Source: Actinopolyspora mzabensis
GTDB taxonomy: Bacteria > Actinomycetota > Actinomycetes > Mycobacteriales > Pseudonocardiaceae
NCBI RefSeq assembly: GCF_900101095.1
Contig: NZ_FNFM01000003.1
Coordinates: 310,001 to 374,000 of the forward strand
Length of the DNA: 64,000 nucleotides
Direction: 5' to 3'
Shown: piece after piece, positions 21,601 to 62,231 of the stretch
Layout: every line of letters begins with the position of its first letter
How positions within the stretch are numbered: position 1 is the first letter of the stretch
Made by a program: the position numbers and the translations under genes
Notes under the pieces: generated by a model
What the model was told of the DNA's origin: nothing
What the model saw: the letters and a program-made list of their open reading frames with translations, nothing else
Databases searched by the model: none

Positions 21601-22872
21601 TCAGTCTTCTTCGTCCTCGTTCGGTTCCGGCGTGGGGTCTGTGACCTCGGTACTCGATTGCAGAGTGGTGGCGACGAGGTCGGCGGCGCTGCGTTCGGGA
21701 TGACGGGCCGCGTGGTTGTAGACGCTCTGGGTGGTGGCGATGCTGGTGTGGCCGAGGTCGGCCTGGACATCGGCGAGGGCGGCGCCTGCCTCGACAGCGG
21801 TGGTGACGTAGAAGTGGCGCAGCGCATGGGGGTGGAGCGCTTCGGCGATGTCGTGCAGTTCGGGGCTGGTGGCCGCCAGTCTGCGCAGCAACTGCCACAG
21901 CCCCTGGCGACTGCACCGCCGGCCACTACGAGTGCTGAGCAGGGGTTGGGGCCCGGAGAGGGTCTGGCCGCGAGGGGCGGGGCGGTTGCTCTGCTGCATG
22001 GAATCGCGGGTGTGGAGGTAGTCGGTCAGGGTGATCTCGACGCTCTCGGGAAGGTAGACGATGCGGGGCTTGTCGCCTTTGCCGGGGACGCGCAGCGCGC
22101 GGCGACCGCGTGTGGTGTGCAGGTCGGAACGGTTGAGGGCACACATCTCACTGACGCGCAGCCCCAGGGTCAGCAGGGCCACCACGGTGGTGGCGCGGGC
22201 GGTGTCCTGCGTGGAGGCACCGCGTCGGGGAGTGGCCGCGGCGGTGTAGAGGGCGCGTACCTGTTCCACGGTGAGGTTCAGCGCGTGGCCGGTCTCGCGG
22301 TTTCCGGACAGCCCGAGGCGGCGCCGGTTGATCGCTGCCGGATTACCGCTGGTCAAACCGGTCTCGGCGAGGTGGGCATAGAGGGCTTTGAGGGTGGCGA
22401 GCATGCGTTCGCGGGTGGTGCGGGCCGCCTCGGCGGTGGCCAGTTCGTCCAGCCAGGCTTTGACGTGGGCGCTGTGGGCGGCCAAAGGGTCGATCCGGTG
22501 GGCGGCGCACCACCGCAGCCAGTGCAGTTCGCGTAGTTTTCCGGGGGCCGCAGGTGGGGGGCGCCGGGTGACTGTCGGTGTCGGTGTCCGCGGGTCGAGT
22601 CCGAGGACTGCGCCGTAGGCATCCACCGTGGCACCCCAACCGGGTGGCCCTGATCCCAGGGTGGCCCAGTCGGCCAGTTCCTCGGGCCCCGCGGGCAAGC
22701 CGAGGCCGGTGGCGTAGGTGCGTCGGGTGGCGACGTTGCCGTAGCCGGCCAGCCAGTCGGCGATGGCAGCCAGCAGGCGTACCGGTTGTTCGGCGCCGGG
22801 CCATGGTTCATGGGCGGCCCCGCTTCGTGGCGTCTTCGTTGCGGCGGGGCTCAACCCCCTGGCGTTAGTCAT
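21601..22872 (-). CDS. Tyrosine recombinase (site-specific integrase)
   Basis: 423 residues. The N-terminal half is a SAM-like core-binding domain (LHWLRWCAAHRIDPLAAHSAHVK-like helices). The C-terminal catalytic domain has the full active set: Arg in LGLRVSEMCAL, Lys in GKGDKPRI, HALR(H), His in LGHTS and the nucleophile Tyr in TQSVYNHAA. The start at 22872 is supported by AAAGGTG; a longer frame lacks a ribosome site. It ends with an acidic tail. It is divergent from a coiled-coil gene, with a 19-bp imperfect inverted repeat in the 139-base gap. It lacks the neighbours of a phage or AICE integrase (no excisionase, no tRNA), so it may act as a resolvase or a standalone inversion/integration enzyme. 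Confidence 0.92.
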   Translation of the reverse strand: MTNARGLSPAATKTPRSGAAHEPWPGAEQPVRLLAAIADWLAGYGNVATRRTYATGLGLPAGPEELADWATLGSGPPGWGATVDAYGAVLGLDPRTPTPTVTRRPPPAAPGKLRELHWLRWCAAHRIDPLAAHSAHVKAWLDELATAEAARTTRERMLATLKALYAHLAETGLTSGNPAAINRRRLGLSGNRETGHALNLTVEQVRALYTAAATPRRGASTQDTARATTVVALLTLGLRVSEMCALNRSDLHTTRGRRALRVPGKGDKPRIVYLPESVEITLTDYLHTRDSMQQSNRPAPRGQTLSGPQPLLSTRSGRRCSRQGLWQLLRRLAATSPELHDIAEALHPHALRHFYVTTAVEAGAALADVQADLGHTSIATTQSVYNHAARHPERSAADLVATTLQSSTEVTDPTPEPNEDEED

Positions 22873-22945
22873 TTTCACCTTTCGGATCCTCGTGTGGCTC
22901 GCTCTGTTGAGGTTAGCAACAAAACAACACTTTCGTAGCAAAGGT

Positions 22946-22992
22946 AGTTATGAATAGCGAAACTCTAAACCAAAGTTGCGATATATATAACT
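22946..22992. repeat. loxP-like imperfect inverted repeat in the divergent gap
   Basis: The arms are AGTTATGAATAGCGAAACT (22946-22964) and the mirror of AAGTTGCGATATATATAACT (22973-22992), matching at 15 of 19 positions. The 8-base centre is CTAAACCA. The surroundings are markedly AT-rich in a GC-rich genome. Arm-8-arm architecture is what a tyrosine-recombinase crossover core looks like. Equally, the repeat sits where a repressor (for example the coiled-coil protein) could control both divergent genes. Confidence 0.6.
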
Positions 22993-23011
22993 CAAAACTA
23001 GGCTGAGGGTC

Positions 23012-24160
23012 ATGGACACCGCCACCGACGACACGGCCCCGCAGGGCCGGTGCAAGCTGGCCGCCTGCCGCGCCCCACTTCCTCCCGCCGGCCCCCGCGG
23101 TGGCCGACCGCCCGAGTACTGCCCGGACCGCACCTGGCCCGGCGGCAAGACCTGCAAACAACTCGCCGCCGCCCAATCCGCCCTGCACGAGGCCTTCGGC
23201 GACGCCCCCGGGACCACGCTGGACAGCGCGGCCGGCGACTTCGCCCGTGCCGCCGACGCGCTGGCCACTCCACTGTCCGAACTGCACACCGCTCTGGAAC
23301 AAGTGCGCGGCCAGGTCACCGAGGAACTGACCACCGCCGCGGCCACCGCCACCAGCGCGCGCACCGACGCCGCCGAGGCCCGCGAGACCGCCCAGCTCGC
23401 GGAGAACGCTCGCGCCGAGGCCGAACAGGCCCAAGCACTCGCCGAGCAAGCCCGCTCCGAGGCCGAAACCGCCGCGGCCGAAGCACGCGGCGAAGCCGAG
23501 CAGGCACGAGCCGAAGCCGAACAGGCCCGCTCGGAGCGAGCCACCGCCCTCGACGCACAGCACCGAGCCGAGACCCGGGCCGCCGCACACGAAGCCACCG
23601 CGGCAGCCGCCACCGACCGCGCCACCACAGCCGAGGAGCGCGCCGCGACCGCGGCCAACGAGCTGACTCAGGCTCGTGAACGCATCGCCGCCCTGGAGGC
23701 CGAACGCGACGCGTTGCGGTCCACGCTGGAGAGCGAACGGCGAACGCACGCGGCCACCGAGGCGGACCTCCGGCAGGCCCGCGACACCGCCCAGACGGCC
23801 GCCCAGGCCGCTGAGACCCGCGTCGAGCAGACCCAAAACCACCTCGAGAAGGTCCAAGCCCGCGCAGAGAACGCCGAGAACCGCGCCGAACAGGCCGAAA
23901 CCCAACTCGCCCACGCCCACCAGCGAGCCACCGACACCGCTGCCGACGCCGCCACCGCCCGGGCAACCGCCGAGACCCTCACCACCGAGTTGACCCAAAC
24001 CAGGACTCGGCTACGGAACCTGCACGAGATCCTGCTCGAGCCGCACGAGACCGACGAACATCTCCGGAACCGCCTGCTCTCGGCACTACTCCAAGACCAG
24101 CCCGAACAGCCCCCAGACCCCGAGGAGACCGGCACACCTCCGACCGAAGGCGCACCATGA
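23012..24160 (+). CDS. Coiled-coil protein with N-terminal cysteine (zinc-type) motif, KfrA-like in character
   Basis: 382 residues. Residues 10-50 have four cysteines (14, 19, 37, 48) around a GRPPEYC segment, like small zinc-binding modules. From about residue 85 to 345 it is one long Ala/Glu/Arg-rich coiled coil with heptad periodicity (RAEAEQARSEAETAAAEA-type repeats). The tail is acidic and proline-rich. There are no SMC-type ATPase motifs. Long alanine-rich coiled coils behind a DNA-binding head are typical of plasmid KfrA proteins, which repress their own promoter and help segregation; this head is different. It is divergent from the tyrosine recombinase, so a DNA-architectural or regulatory partner role is my inference. 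Confidence 0.8.
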   Translation: MDTATDDTAPQGRCKLAACRAPLPPAGPRGGRPPEYCPDRTWPGGKTCKQLAAAQSALHEAFGDAPGTTLDSAAGDFARAADALATPLSELHTALEQVRGQVTEELTTAAATATSARTDAAEARETAQLAENARAEAEQAQALAEQARSEAETAAAEARGEAEQARAEAEQARSERATALDAQHRAETRAAAHEATAAAATDRATTAEERAATAANELTQARERIAALEAERDALRSTLESERRTHAATEADLRQARDTAQTAAQAAETRVEQTQNHLEKVQARAENAENRAEQAETQLAHAHQRATDTAADAATARATAETLTTELTQTRTRLRNLHEILLEPHETDEHLRNRLLSALLQDQPEQPPDPEETGTPPTEGAP

Positions 24161-25189: not shown

Positions 25190-26882
25190 GCGGAGGCGGT
25201 GTTGACGCGGTATCGCCAGGAGAAGGTAGGGCCACCAACGGCGAGCCGGTGGAGCGGGTCGTGGCCAGCGCATTGCGGCAGTTCGAGGATGCCTTCTGCG
25301 GGTGCACGGTGGCGCGGTTGGGTCCGGCCGCTGGTCGACGAGAAAGGCCGCATCGAGCGTATCCCGTATGAGCTGTGTGTGCTGGTGGCGCTGCGGGACG
25401 CGCTACGTCGTCGTGAGGTGTATGTGGCTGGATCCGGCCTGTGGCGCAACCCCGAAGACGAGCTACCCGCGGATTTCGAAACCAGCCGGGATATGCACTA
25501 CGCCGAGCTGCGCCAGCCCTCGGATGCTGCGGAGTTCCTCTCTGGGTTGAAGCAGCGCATGACCAGCGTACTGGAGCGGTTCGATTCCGCCCTCGCCGAC
25601 GGAACGGCTGGCGGGGCCCGGATCACCCGGTGTCGCGGCGAACCGTGGATCTGCTCGACGTGCTCAAAGAGGCCGACTTCCTCACCGAGTTCACCGGCGA
25701 GTTCACCTCGGTGGCCTCCCGCGAGATCATCGACCGGGTCACGCTGCGCCGTCGGCTGCTGCTGTGCCTGTTCGCGCTGGGCACCAACATCGGCATTCGA
25801 CAGCTGGTCGCCACCGGCGAGCACGGGGAGACCGAGGCCGCACTGCGCTACGTCCGCCAGCAGTTCATCACCCGCGACAACATCCGCGCGGCGGTGGGCA
25901 AGCTGGTCAACGCCACCTTCGAAGCCCGCGATCCGCAGCGGTGGGGAGAGGGCACCGCCTGTGCCAGCGATTCGAAGAATTTCGGTTCGTGGCAGTCGCA
26001 CCCGATGACCGAGTGGCACCAGCGCTACGGCCGCCCGGTGCGATGACCTACTGGCACGTCGAGCGCAAACACACCTGCATCCACTCACAGCTTAAATCCT
26101 GCTCTTCGTCCGAAGAAGGCGGCGATGATCGGCGGCGATGATCGAGGGACTGCTGTGGCACTGCACCGACACCGTGGCCGAGGCCAACTACGTAGACACG
26201 CATGGGGCCAGCGTGGTCGGGTTCGCCTTCACCGAACTGCTCGACTTCCGGCTACTACCCCGCCTGAAGAACATCGGCTCCATCCGGCTCTACCGGCCCG
26301 ACGAGGACGCCGCCTACGCCCACCTCGGAGCGATAACCACCAGGCCGATCAAATCGGATCTCCTCGCCCAGCAATACGACCAAATGGTCAAATACGCCAC
26401 CGCGCTGCGGCTCGGGACGGCCGAGTCGGAGTCGATCCTGCGCCGGTTCACCCGCGGCGGCCCCGAACACCCCACCTACCAGGCACCGGAAGAGTTGGGC
26501 CGGGCGGTGCGCACCATCTTCGCCTGCGACTACCTCGCCTGCCCACAGCTGCGCCGCGAGATCCACGGCGGGCTGCAGGTCGTCGAGAACTGGAACTTAA
26601 GGCAACGGCGTCATCTTCTACGGCAAGGACGGCGACCTGGCCGGCCCCGATCGCGAGTCCGCCGAAGTCTCCATGCTGGCGCTGCACTTGCTGCAGTTCG
26701 CGTTGGTGCACGTCAACACGCTGCTGCTGCAGAACGTCCCCGATACTCCAGGTTGGGCCGACCTGCTGGGCGAACACGACCATCGAGCGCTCAGCCCGCT
26801 GTTCTGGTCCAACATCAACCCCTACGGGCGATTCCGACTCAACATGGACACCCGGCTCGACCTGACCGCAGTTACCAGCTGA
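25190..26882 (+). mobile_element. Tn3-family transposase (TnpA) C-terminal remnant
   Basis: About 550 residues of the C-terminal part of a Tn3-type TnpA, broken by at least three frameshifts. Segments are [33 protein letters not shown] and FLSGLKQRM; after a shift near 25620, [16 protein letters not shown] and [12 protein letters not shown] (first catalytic Asp region), WHQRYGRP; after 26050, [18 protein letters not shown]; then [17 protein letters not shown] (second Asp), [17 protein letters not shown]; after 26597, [20 protein letters not shown] (Glu region), NTLLLQNV and [16 protein letters not shown]. The N-terminal third is absent. It abuts a truncated SnoaL-like gene. I could not identify a terminal inverted repeat. 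Confidence 0.88.
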
Positions 26883-26955
26883 ACCGAGCACGCAGCCGTC
26901 TCAGCTGAGGATCCCTCGCCGTACGTAGGCAGAGGGTTCCGCAATTGACGGACGG

Positions 26956-27812: not shown

Positions 27813-28352
27813 TCAGACTGACGGTTGTTGGTCGAGCAGCCCGACGGGGTCGGCGCTGTAGGCGACCATCCAGCTGGGGTCGATGCGATACCACACGTTC
27901 TCGTCCCAGAACGGATCGTCGCCATCGCCGTCGTAGTGGTTGACGAGGTAGTCGCGGACGGTCGGCCAAGTCGGGTCGCTGCTCGTCCCCTCGGGGTTCA
28001 GCGGAACGGCGTGTCCATGCGTGAAAATGCCGAGCTGCTCGCCGCGCATGAAGGTCGCGCTGATTCCGGGCCGCGCCGCGAGATTACGGGCTTTAGCGGC
28101 CTGACGGTGGGTGCCGACGATCCAACGGCCGTGCAGGAGGTGCCCGTCGGCGCCGCTGATGCGTGGCTCACCGCGCCGGGTGACCGTGGCAATAGCCAGG
28201 GTGCACATGCCTTGGCAGACTCGGACGACCTGCTCGGCGTCCAAGGTGCTTTCACCTGGCCGGATAATCGACTTGAGATGGCTGCTGGAGCCAGCCCAAG
28301 ACGTGTCGAGCAGGACTTGAAGGCTGCGGAGCTCATCGGGAGTTTCGAACAT
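27813..28352 (-). CDS. Pyridoxamine 5'-phosphate oxidase-family (FMN-binding split barrel) protein
   Basis: 179 residues. The split-barrel pattern is visible: LAIATVTRRGEPRISGADGHLL, RWIVGTHRQAAKARNLAARPG and ISATFMRGEQLGIFTHGHAV, then a helical end with DPSWMVAYSADP. Family members bind FMN or F420 and reduce varied substrates; several actinomycete branches use F420. It lies upstream of the DHFR-type gene on the same strand with a 263-base gap, so they may not be one transcript. The start has no strong ribosome site. Confidence 0.85.
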   Translation of the reverse strand: MFETPDELRSLQVLLDTSWAGSSSHLKSIIRPGESTLDAEQVVRVCQGMCTLAIATVTRRGEPRISGADGHLLHGRWIVGTHRQAAKARNLAARPGISATFMRGEQLGIFTHGHAVPLNPEGTSSDPTWPTVRDYLVNHYDGDGDDPFWDENVWYRIDPSWMVAYSADPVGLLDQQPSV

Positions 28353-32285: not shown

Positions 32286-33170
32286 TCAAGTGCGAGCATC
32301 GCCGAACGCGAGCAGACTGGTGACCTCGGCGATCGCCTGGCCGGAGGGCTTGAAGTAGCGACGGAGGTTCTCCGGCGTCTTTTGCCGGGACTTCGCCATC
32401 AACAAAGCAACGACGCGCCCCGCTCGCCGAGGTGGGTCAACGCCGAGTGGCGGAACTCGTGCAGATCCCCACCCCGTGCCAGGGCCGCGCAGCGCGGTGT
32501 AGGCATCCAGCAGAGCACGAGACCGACCATAGGACAGCCGCGCCAACTCGGTGTCCGGGCCCGCATCGCGCGGTCCGAAGACCTTGCCGGGAGCGGGACG
32601 GCGATGGGTGACAAACTCCGGCCCGCGGGCGCGCCCCTTGAACAGCCGGGGCAGCAGGCGGACGGTACCGGCGTCCCAGTAGACGGTTTCCAGCACGACG
32701 TCCCCGCGGGCCTGCCCGAGGAGGCGGGTCTTCGCCCGAGCGCCCTTGGCCATGACTGCCGCGCTGCGCCCGGCCAGGTCAAGGTCCTCGATGTTGAGAG
32801 CAAGGATCTCCTCGGCGCGACCGGCGGTTTCGTAGAACGTCTTCTCTCGAAGCGCGACCTCGCGACGTGCCACCAGCCGAGCAATCGCCCTCCGAGACCG
32901 CACCGGTGTCTCCGAATCCGGGGGGGCGCGAGGCGTGTGCACCATCCCGGCACGGCCGGGCCTCATCGCGTTCCCGGCACCAGGCCAACCAGGAACCCAC
33001 TGCGGCGCGGCGGGTGTTCCAGGTGCCTGCAGCTGCCCGGCCCACAGCGATTCCAGGGCCTCGCCGGCGTCGTTGTCGGCCACCGCCGCCGGCGGGCGAT
33101 GCTCGTCGGGCACGAACTCGGCCGAGAGCCGGTTAATGGTCAGTTCCCCGGACTCACCCTCGATCACCCG
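32286..33170 (-). pseudogene. Tyrosine-type integrase, multiply frameshifted
   Basis: The core-binding domain ([20 protein letters not shown]) and catalytic domain lie in different frames. The main frame gives [20 protein letters not shown] (catalytic Arg region) and [13 protein letters not shown] (nucleophile Tyr). The HxxR box ([20 protein letters not shown]) is in another frame between two shifts at about 32400-32480. Four or more frame changes are needed. With the intact recombinase at 21601 it brackets an 11-kb stretch rich in transposon debris. Confidence 0.8.
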
Positions 33171-61422: not shown

Positions 61423-62231
61423 CCCCCACGGCACGACTCGTCGCAGGGACTCGTCGCAGGGCAGGGGAGCAGTAGTACCGCGTTTCCGGATCACCGCCCC
61501 GCACGTCGCGCTCGAGGGGATCGCACTGTTCTACAACGGACAGGCACCACAACCGGACAATCGTTCTCGCAGCGGATCGAGAAGTCTCGAGGGGTGGCGC
61601 CGGAAGCGGTCCTCGTCCTGTCGAAAGAGACCGACGAGCAGTAGACCGCACCGCGGGTTCCGAAGAGCACGGCCACGAACCACGCATCGGCGCTCTACCT
61701 GCTTTCCCGGGCCCGTACAGGACAGGGCGCAGCTCGGAGGGCGCAGCTCGGGAGGAGAGCGGACCCGCCACTGCGAAATCCATTACTTAACATAATGTGT
61801 ATTATCGGCTAAAGCTGTACCCGGCGTGTCCGGTGGTTCCGGTGACGACCCGGCGTTCTTCCGCTCTCCGCTGGAGACAGTTCTCTTGCGGTGCGCCGCA
61901 CGTGCTGAACGCTGCTTGCCGTGGTCGACCCTGTGGATCATCAGGGCCGCGGAATGACTCCCGAGGGGTTTCCGCCACCTGTCGGACCGGGACGACGATC
62001 TCGGCACGGACACGGCGACGAGACGTGCGAATCCGTCACCGTGATGACGGTGTCTCGTGCGGCGAAAACCGGTGCGTGTCACCGGTGCTCGTGCCGGTGC
62101 CGACCGAGGCACGTCGACACGTCCCCACTCCGCCAGATGTTCGTCCTCGTTCGCTCCCGTGAAACGTGGATAACAAATATTATCCATCATTTTGTGTCTC
62201 GACTTCCACGCCGACGCTGCCCGTGACGTGC
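61423..62231. other. Long gene-free stretch with two AT-rich palindromes
   Basis: No frame on either strand carries a recognisable domain. Two palindromes stand out in otherwise GC-rich DNA: ATAAT-GTGT-ATTAT (61792-61805) and TGGATAA-N6-TTATCCA (62167-62186). They look like regulator sites, but no regulator gene is present, so a small gene between them may have been lost. Confidence 0.4.

Follow-up and report, generated by a model that had tools for sequence, protein, structure and literature searches.

Introduction

In Actinopolyspora mzabensis the gene of a tyrosine recombinase lies back to back with the gene of a long coiled-coil protein, and the question arises on which DNA such a pair acts and what it does for the cell. 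The window, that is the whole stretch of 64,000 nucleotides analysed here (positions 310,001 to 374,000 of contig NZ_FNFM01000003.1), had previously been read as possibly containing a self-contained recombination and segregation or inversion module built around a core of the Cre/lox or Xer type. The first of these two proposals is supported by comparison with relatives, in that the parts are conserved together, with a single place for the core in the 25 of 45 genomes matched by a core pattern and a position in the chromosome terminus. As judged from sequence, partner protein, core and recombinase have been shown to be conserved together near the predicted dif site of the chromosome, and the arms of the core covary with the recombinase.

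The gene pair and its intergenic gap

The relevant features of the window are the following.

21601..22872, minus strand: tyrosine recombinase, 423 amino acids from the ATG at 22872, Phage_integrase match at 1.2e-22
22912..22943, no strand: core site, GTTAGCAACAAAA CAACAC TTTCGTAGCAAAG, a 13-6-13 inverted repeat with 9 of 13 positions paired
22946..22964, no strand: accessory repeat 1 (left arm of the sequence-only reading), AGTT-N11-AACT, probable operator of the partner
22974..22992, no strand: accessory repeat 2 (right arm of the same reading), AGTT-N11-AACT, its GTT-N11-AAC beginning 31 bp past the core
23012..24160, plus strand: partner protein, 382 amino acids, four-cysteine head (C14, C19, C37, C48) and long predicted coiled coil
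25441..26908: decayed Tn3-family transposase, PF01526 matches at 5.3e-27 and 7.6e-51, starting 1.3 kb to the right of the module
61785..61812, minus strand: predicted dif of the chromosome, TTAGCCGATAATACACATTATGTTAAGT, at a distance of 39 kb to the recombinase, resembling the F. alni dif in the accessible part of PMC3025954

The sequence-only reading had claimed a complete tyrosine recombinase, a coiled-coil protein on the opposite strand with a four-cysteine head, and an AT-rich gap between the two genes, and all of these are found. The recombinase has the catalytic residues R239, K265, H349, R352, H375, and Y385, none of which varies among its relatives (61 of 61). In the window 40 bp separate the core from the recombinase ATG; an alternative longer start, a TTG at 22941, would result in an overlap with the core. 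The closest named relatives come from Actinopolyspora with 91% and 85% identity. In a tree of the recombinase the sequences of Amycolatopsis, Actinokineospora, and Saccharothrix each fall into several clades. The protein scores 130 bits with the XerD model, below the cut-off of 329.6; this score and the presence of a separate predicted dif speak against the recombinase being XerC or XerD and the core being dif.

In the partner protein C14 is conserved in 47 of 48 sequences and C19, C37, and C48 in 48 of 48. An AlphaFold2 model yielded a helix from residue 71 to 342 (272 residues) with a mean pLDDT of 80, and no Pfam family was found in the protein above the cut-off. When the surroundings of the recombinase were checked for conservation of this partner, it was detected in 99 of 141 loci. 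Among the 42 loci where it went undetected only L054 and L058 were later explained, by a diverged cysteine-head protein whose start is 80 bp away from a site that belongs to another type (13 loci tried, two matched). The gap between the two genes measures 139 bp and has 42% GC compared to 67% for the window. A -10-like hexamer, TAGGCT, is located 8 bp ahead of the partner ATG in the window, so that the accessory repeats would abut the promoter of the partner.

Relatives of the recombinase with an E value of 1e-45 or better occur in 112 of 390 genomes of the family, one copy in each, and in 12 of 46 genera. Named records with relatives include also Haloactinomyces and, among 80 of 184 confirmed loci, Amycolatopsis, Actinophytocola, Actinokineospora, Actinosynnema, Saccharothrix, Lentzea, Prauserella, Saccharomonospora, Solihabitans, Gandjariella, and Pseudonocardia; outside the family, Kribbella carries a relative among these same loci. 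In several genera genes intervene between recombinase and site, and the flanks vary among genera. In three Actinopolyspora genomes without the module the block which bears it elsewhere consists largely of other DNA, so that the module is not indispensable, and no clean empty site was found in module-lacking Actinopolyspora.

Two side observations concern this region. The 179 amino acid reading frame at 27813-28352 of the window is 98% and 95% identical to its copies in the module-lacking G072 and G150, while neighbouring backbone genes reach only 69-91%, which suggests a recent exchange in the terminus region. Three module-lacking Actinopolyspora genomes carry a different tyrosine recombinase 6-8 kb from dif (G072:C2:2632136-2633255, G150:C1:1297892-1299020, and G117:C1:1934780-1936010), with 373-410 amino acids counted from the first start and about 31% identity to that of the window; no paired site was seen upstream of these three genes.

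The core site

The 19-bp inverted arms, which had been taken for the recombination core, are real, with 15 of 19 positions paired and 0 of 1000 shuffles reaching this value, though their centre measures 9 bp and not 8. As a conserved core they had to be given up: the arms drift among relatives, whereas a comparison of the gaps across genera revealed a conserved position and inner motif at 22912-22943, just to the left of the arms. In the window alone this core is weak, its 9 of 13 pairs being equalled by 126 of 1000 shuffles, and it is therefore detectable through comparison only. In 20 of 44 loci a GTT-N11-AAC, as contained in each of the two AGTT-N11-AACT arms, begins 31 ± 1 bp past the core (mean of letter shuffles 0.03, maximum 2 in 2000 shuffles), and 31 of 44 have one anywhere after it (mean 0.58, maximum 4 in 500). 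On this comparison the 19-bp arms are probably accessory operators rather than core.

Where a partner was detected the core lies 35-119 bp upstream of it, and this holds also for loci with a recombinase gene 2-13 kb away. The 99 loci with detectable partner yielded 95 unambiguous picks and 68 distinct cores, with identical cores counted once and the four ambiguous picks left out of the covariation count; the loci, taken from genomes with G handles and from named records, overlap in part through repeat genomes, and in L039/L120 and L047/L136 the automatic pick looks wrong, a palindrome closer to the partner having been chosen. The arms differ by clade yet remain inverted repeats. Scored on seven outer positions which had not been used in choosing the cores, the symmetry of the arms was 0.655 in the 68 cores as compared to 0.464 when right arms were swapped between loci (maximum 0.546 in 5000 swaps). 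The 6-bp centre occurs in 42 hexamer forms among the 68 cores; conserved arms around a freely varying centre of 6 bp are what would be expected of a crossover region. Partial Mantel tests over 46 loci related the divergence of the core to that of the recombinase with the partner controlled for (r = 0.63, reached in 0 of 2000 permutations); for the core and the partner head with the recombinase controlled for the value was -0.34, i.e., no positive relation.

A genome-wide search was done with a pattern covering one core type at up to two mismatches. It matched 25 of 45 module genomes, in a single place in each; the 20 unmatched ones include genera with other core types. Of these 25 places 24 lie on the recombinase contig within about 12 kb of the gene, and that of G116 lies on another contig. 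The genome of the window itself has the pattern at one place. An inversion module, the other half of the earlier proposal, is not supported by these data, as a second core was absent from all 25 genomes matched by the one-type pattern.

Position in the chromosome terminus

The gene dnaA was located in 45 genomes, of which G072 lacks the module and G069, G017, G181, G293, and G332 have dnaA and recombinase on separate contigs. On 36 of 39 contigs, several of which belong to multi-contig genomes, the recombinase lies at least 0.40 of the contig circle away from dnaA, and on 32 at least 0.45, the median being 0.486. The exceptions are G231 (0.30), G282 (0.25), and G333 (0.08), the last of which means little since it is a contig of 4.0 Mb from a genome of 7.6 Mb.

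A closer landmark is dif, which was searched with an actinobacterial pattern made after the F. alni sequence in the accessible part of PMC3025954. The pattern had a match in 33 of 46 module genomes, in two of them (G038 and G066) on another contig. In the 31 genomes with dif on the recombinase contig the distance was 10-108 kb in 31 of 31, with 30 within 73 kb and a median of 38 kb; the 108 kb of G371 depend on a poor dif match. A second pattern match of another form in G115, G238, G277, and G281 was excluded from these distances, the retained match having the form found in relatives. The dnaA outliers G231 and G282 are still near dif, at 41 and 39 kb.

Two other explanations for this position were rejected. 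One is a mere mid-chromosome position or syntenic drift. In eight dif regions from five genera the recombinase was the sole open reading frame common to all eight, and between genera the regions shared 1 to 9 reciprocal-best frames out of 37-72, where frames were called by a simple script and the partner, which is of low complexity, was not linked across genera by this comparison. The genes located from the module to dif are thus hardly the same in different genera, and the dnaA outliers still lie by dif. The other is a general clustering of integrases at dif. In 16 one-contig genomes 150 of 158 tyrosine recombinase matches were listed; 16 of these are the module, and of the 134 others 118 are more than 100 kb from dif and 16 are nearer, 13 of these 16 being a single conserved gene next to dif. 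In genus g22 two types of the recombinase, split by identity to the window protein, both occur near dif, at 29-38 and 39-73 kb. Together with the splits of genera in the recombinase tree this means that the closeness to dif has outlasted apparent replacement or exchange of the recombinase.

Among the matches listed, this gene encodes another tyrosine recombinase of about 335 amino acids, which in 13 of the 16 one-contig genomes is 0.7-5.7 kb away from dif, e.g., G021:C1:4011929-4012933 (L095), G238:C1:6611143-6612138 (L101), and G190:C1:2197301-2198293 (L104). Five compared proteins of this kind are 66-87% identical, and those dif regions of Actinopolyspora and G052 which were compared lack the gene. 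Its own target may be dif.

The 13 module genomes in which dif was not found all belong to genus g5 (Pseudonocardia; G169 and G345 are examples of its genomes), where 13 of 14 genomes gave no match to the actinobacterial pattern. With a longer pattern, allowing up to three mismatches, 14 of 15 genomes gave none, and a scan of 160 kb surrounding the module revealed no dif-like sequence in two genomes of this genus. Dif may be strongly diverged in g5. XerD- and XerC-like proteins were present in all three g5 genomes tested; the test covered 20 genomes altogether, including 17 with the module, and found such proteins in every one. Of these 20, 14 were over the XerD cut-off, and XerC was assigned from the second-best score only.

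Comparison with known systems

In XerS/difSL and XerH/difH, which resolve chromosome dimers, one tyrosine recombinase acts with a linked inverted-repeat site in the chromosome terminus, as described in the part of PMC5357621 at hand. The module shares with them a single recombinase with intact catalytic residues (61 of 61), a recombinase gene which adjoins the site here, although the two are 2-13 kb apart in some relatives, and a site in the terminus (36 of 39 contigs) in a single place in the 25 of 45 genomes matched by the pattern. While XerS/difSL and XerH/difH stand in place of XerCD, the module coexists with XerD- and XerC-like proteins and, outside g5, with dif, and it adds a conserved partner and accessory repeats. 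The closest precedent found for such coexistence is Lactobacillus helveticus, which according to the accessible text of PMC3025954 has XerCD and XerS together.

In layout the module resembles TnpS/TnpT/rst of Tn4651-type Tn3 transposons. There, as stated in the section of PMC7157771 consulted, a tyrosine recombinase and a divergent coiled-coil helper enclose a core and accessory inverted repeats, and the module likewise has a divergent helper with core and accessory repeats in the gap. The proteins differ. TnpT of pWW0 is a KfrA_N protein (2.6e-26) for which no homology to the partner was detected, and TnpS of pWW0 has only distant similarity to the module recombinase. Unlike TnpS/TnpT/rst, the module is chromosomal, present in a single copy, located by dif, and mostly without Tn3 (no match in 29 of 45 genomes).

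Cre-loxP placed within ter can replace XerCD-dif in the resolution of Escherichia coli chromosome dimers (PMC2680272, seen in part). Like Cre/loxP the module has short arms around a small centre and one recombinase; in contrast to it there are accessory repeats and a partner, the site is a natural one in a chromosome terminus, and no phage or plasmid origin was seen. Accessory DNA accompanies also the plasmid sites cer and psi, where XerCD works with PepA, ArgR, or ArcA and the accessory-protein DNA is thought to confer directionality (PMC5357621, in the part at hand). The module differs from cer and psi in having its own recombinase and partner, in being chromosomal, and in the length of the accessory DNA, which is about 50 bp as compared to about 180 bp. 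The dif activity zone of E. coli extends about 10 kb to either side and the capture zone of FtsK spans about 400 kb, as given in the same available portion of PMC2680272. All but the closest distances between module and dif exceed the activity zone, and they are compatible with the FtsK capture zone. No published account of this module was met in the literature searched, which lay mostly outside subscription journals and was accessible in part. By analogy, the module would best be read as closest to XerS/difSL or Cre/loxP, equipped with a helper that is TnpT-like but unrelated.

Proposed function and alternatives

On the strength of these comparisons we hold, with moderate confidence, that the module is likely a single-recombinase resolution system of the dif zone which separates sister chromosomes beside XerCD/dif. 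The recombinase would bind both arms of the core and exchange strands in the 6-bp centre, and in a chromosome dimer it would recombine the core of one half with that of the other so that the sisters separate. The partner would bind both GTT-N11-AAC repeats, which adjoin its promoter, and repress itself, and its long coil could bridge or filter synapses so that dimers are resolved and not made. Timing might be provided by the position in the terminus, where the DNA that is last to segregate encounters the septum of the dividing cell. Against resolution speak the patchy presence (112 of 390 genomes), the other DNA in the block of three module-lacking Actinopolyspora, the 42 of 141 loci without detected partner, the distances to dif, most of which are larger than the E. 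coli activity zone, and the separation of recombinase and site by other genes. Since both XerD- and XerC-like proteins occur, as does dif outside g5, the function of the module would moreover be redundant. A bolder form of the proposal, in which Pseudonocardiaceae together with Kribbella would possess a second, XerCD-independent terminus system with the partner gating the synapsis of sisters, and which would have taken over dimer resolution in Pseudonocardia, appears rather doubtful.

The alternative which survives best, though we judge it unlikely, is that a Tn3-like or integrative element has left behind its mobility or resolution part as the module, the remainder having decayed or moved away. 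The earlier reading had seen no excisionase, phage, or tRNA neighbour at this locus; the window indeed has no tRNA, but a mobile neighbour is present, since a Tn3-family transposase, broken up into several open fragments, occupies 25441-26908. Because of this relic next door the pair was initially considered a Tn3 resolution module, an idea that was rejected as PF01526 has no match anywhere in 29 of 45 module genomes and TnpT is unrelated to the partner. Pieces of Tn3 transposases are located within about 10 kb of the recombinase also in G038, G116, and G069, with related frames beside the recombinase in G097. Such pieces are more frequent near the recombinase than would be expected if the two were unrelated. 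The layout shared with TnpS/TnpT/rst, as far as the source at hand describes it, these Tn3 pieces, the splitting of genera in the recombinase tree, and the variability of the block in Actinopolyspora all fit a mobile element. The genomes without PF01526 do not, nor does the lack of a full-length recombinase relative in phage or plasmid records and viral contigs, nor that of the core pattern, which matched 0 viral contigs, one site region being also without a plasmid match. Distant relatives occur in 130 plasmid records, and in the three of these that were inspected no divergent partner was annotated beside the recombinase. One copy per genome, no second core as the other end, and the steady proximity to dif likewise argue against this alternative, and the Tn3 relic beside the module looks incidental. 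As a further observation, the reading frame at 32286-33167 of the window has a weak tyrosine recombinase match (Phage_integrase 0.055, XerC model 0.0078) and is perhaps a decayed integrase.

Still less probable is a docking function of the single core, in which incoming circles with the same site would be integrated there by the recombinase and the terminus would serve as an insertion platform. The genes found between recombinase and site in several genera and the flanks that differ among genera would suit this explanation, but integration would leave a second core, which none of the 25 pattern-matched genomes has, and the core is absent from viral contigs and, for one site region, from plasmids. 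Equally improbable are palindromes which serve as plain operators, with partner and recombinase regulating a shared divergent promoter and the true recombination target elsewhere: although the core stays by the partner gene when the recombinase is 2-13 kb off and the accessory repeats abut the partner promoter, core divergence follows the recombinase and not the partner (partial r 0.63 versus -0.34), which disfavours binding of the core by the partner as a plain operator, an outcome the earlier reading had named as fatal to itself, and conserved arms around a variable centre fit a crossover region.

The prevailing view is that XerCD/dif is the general answer to chromosome dimers and that single-recombinase systems are its replacements. 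If resolution beside XerCD/dif is indeed what the module performs, a second module kept within tens of kb of dif amid gene turnover would point to a need that is unmet by XerCD/dif, and a natural Cre/loxP-like system with an accessory gate of its own would have been found. The module makes the need for placing such a site near dif directly testable in non-pathogenic actinomycetes.
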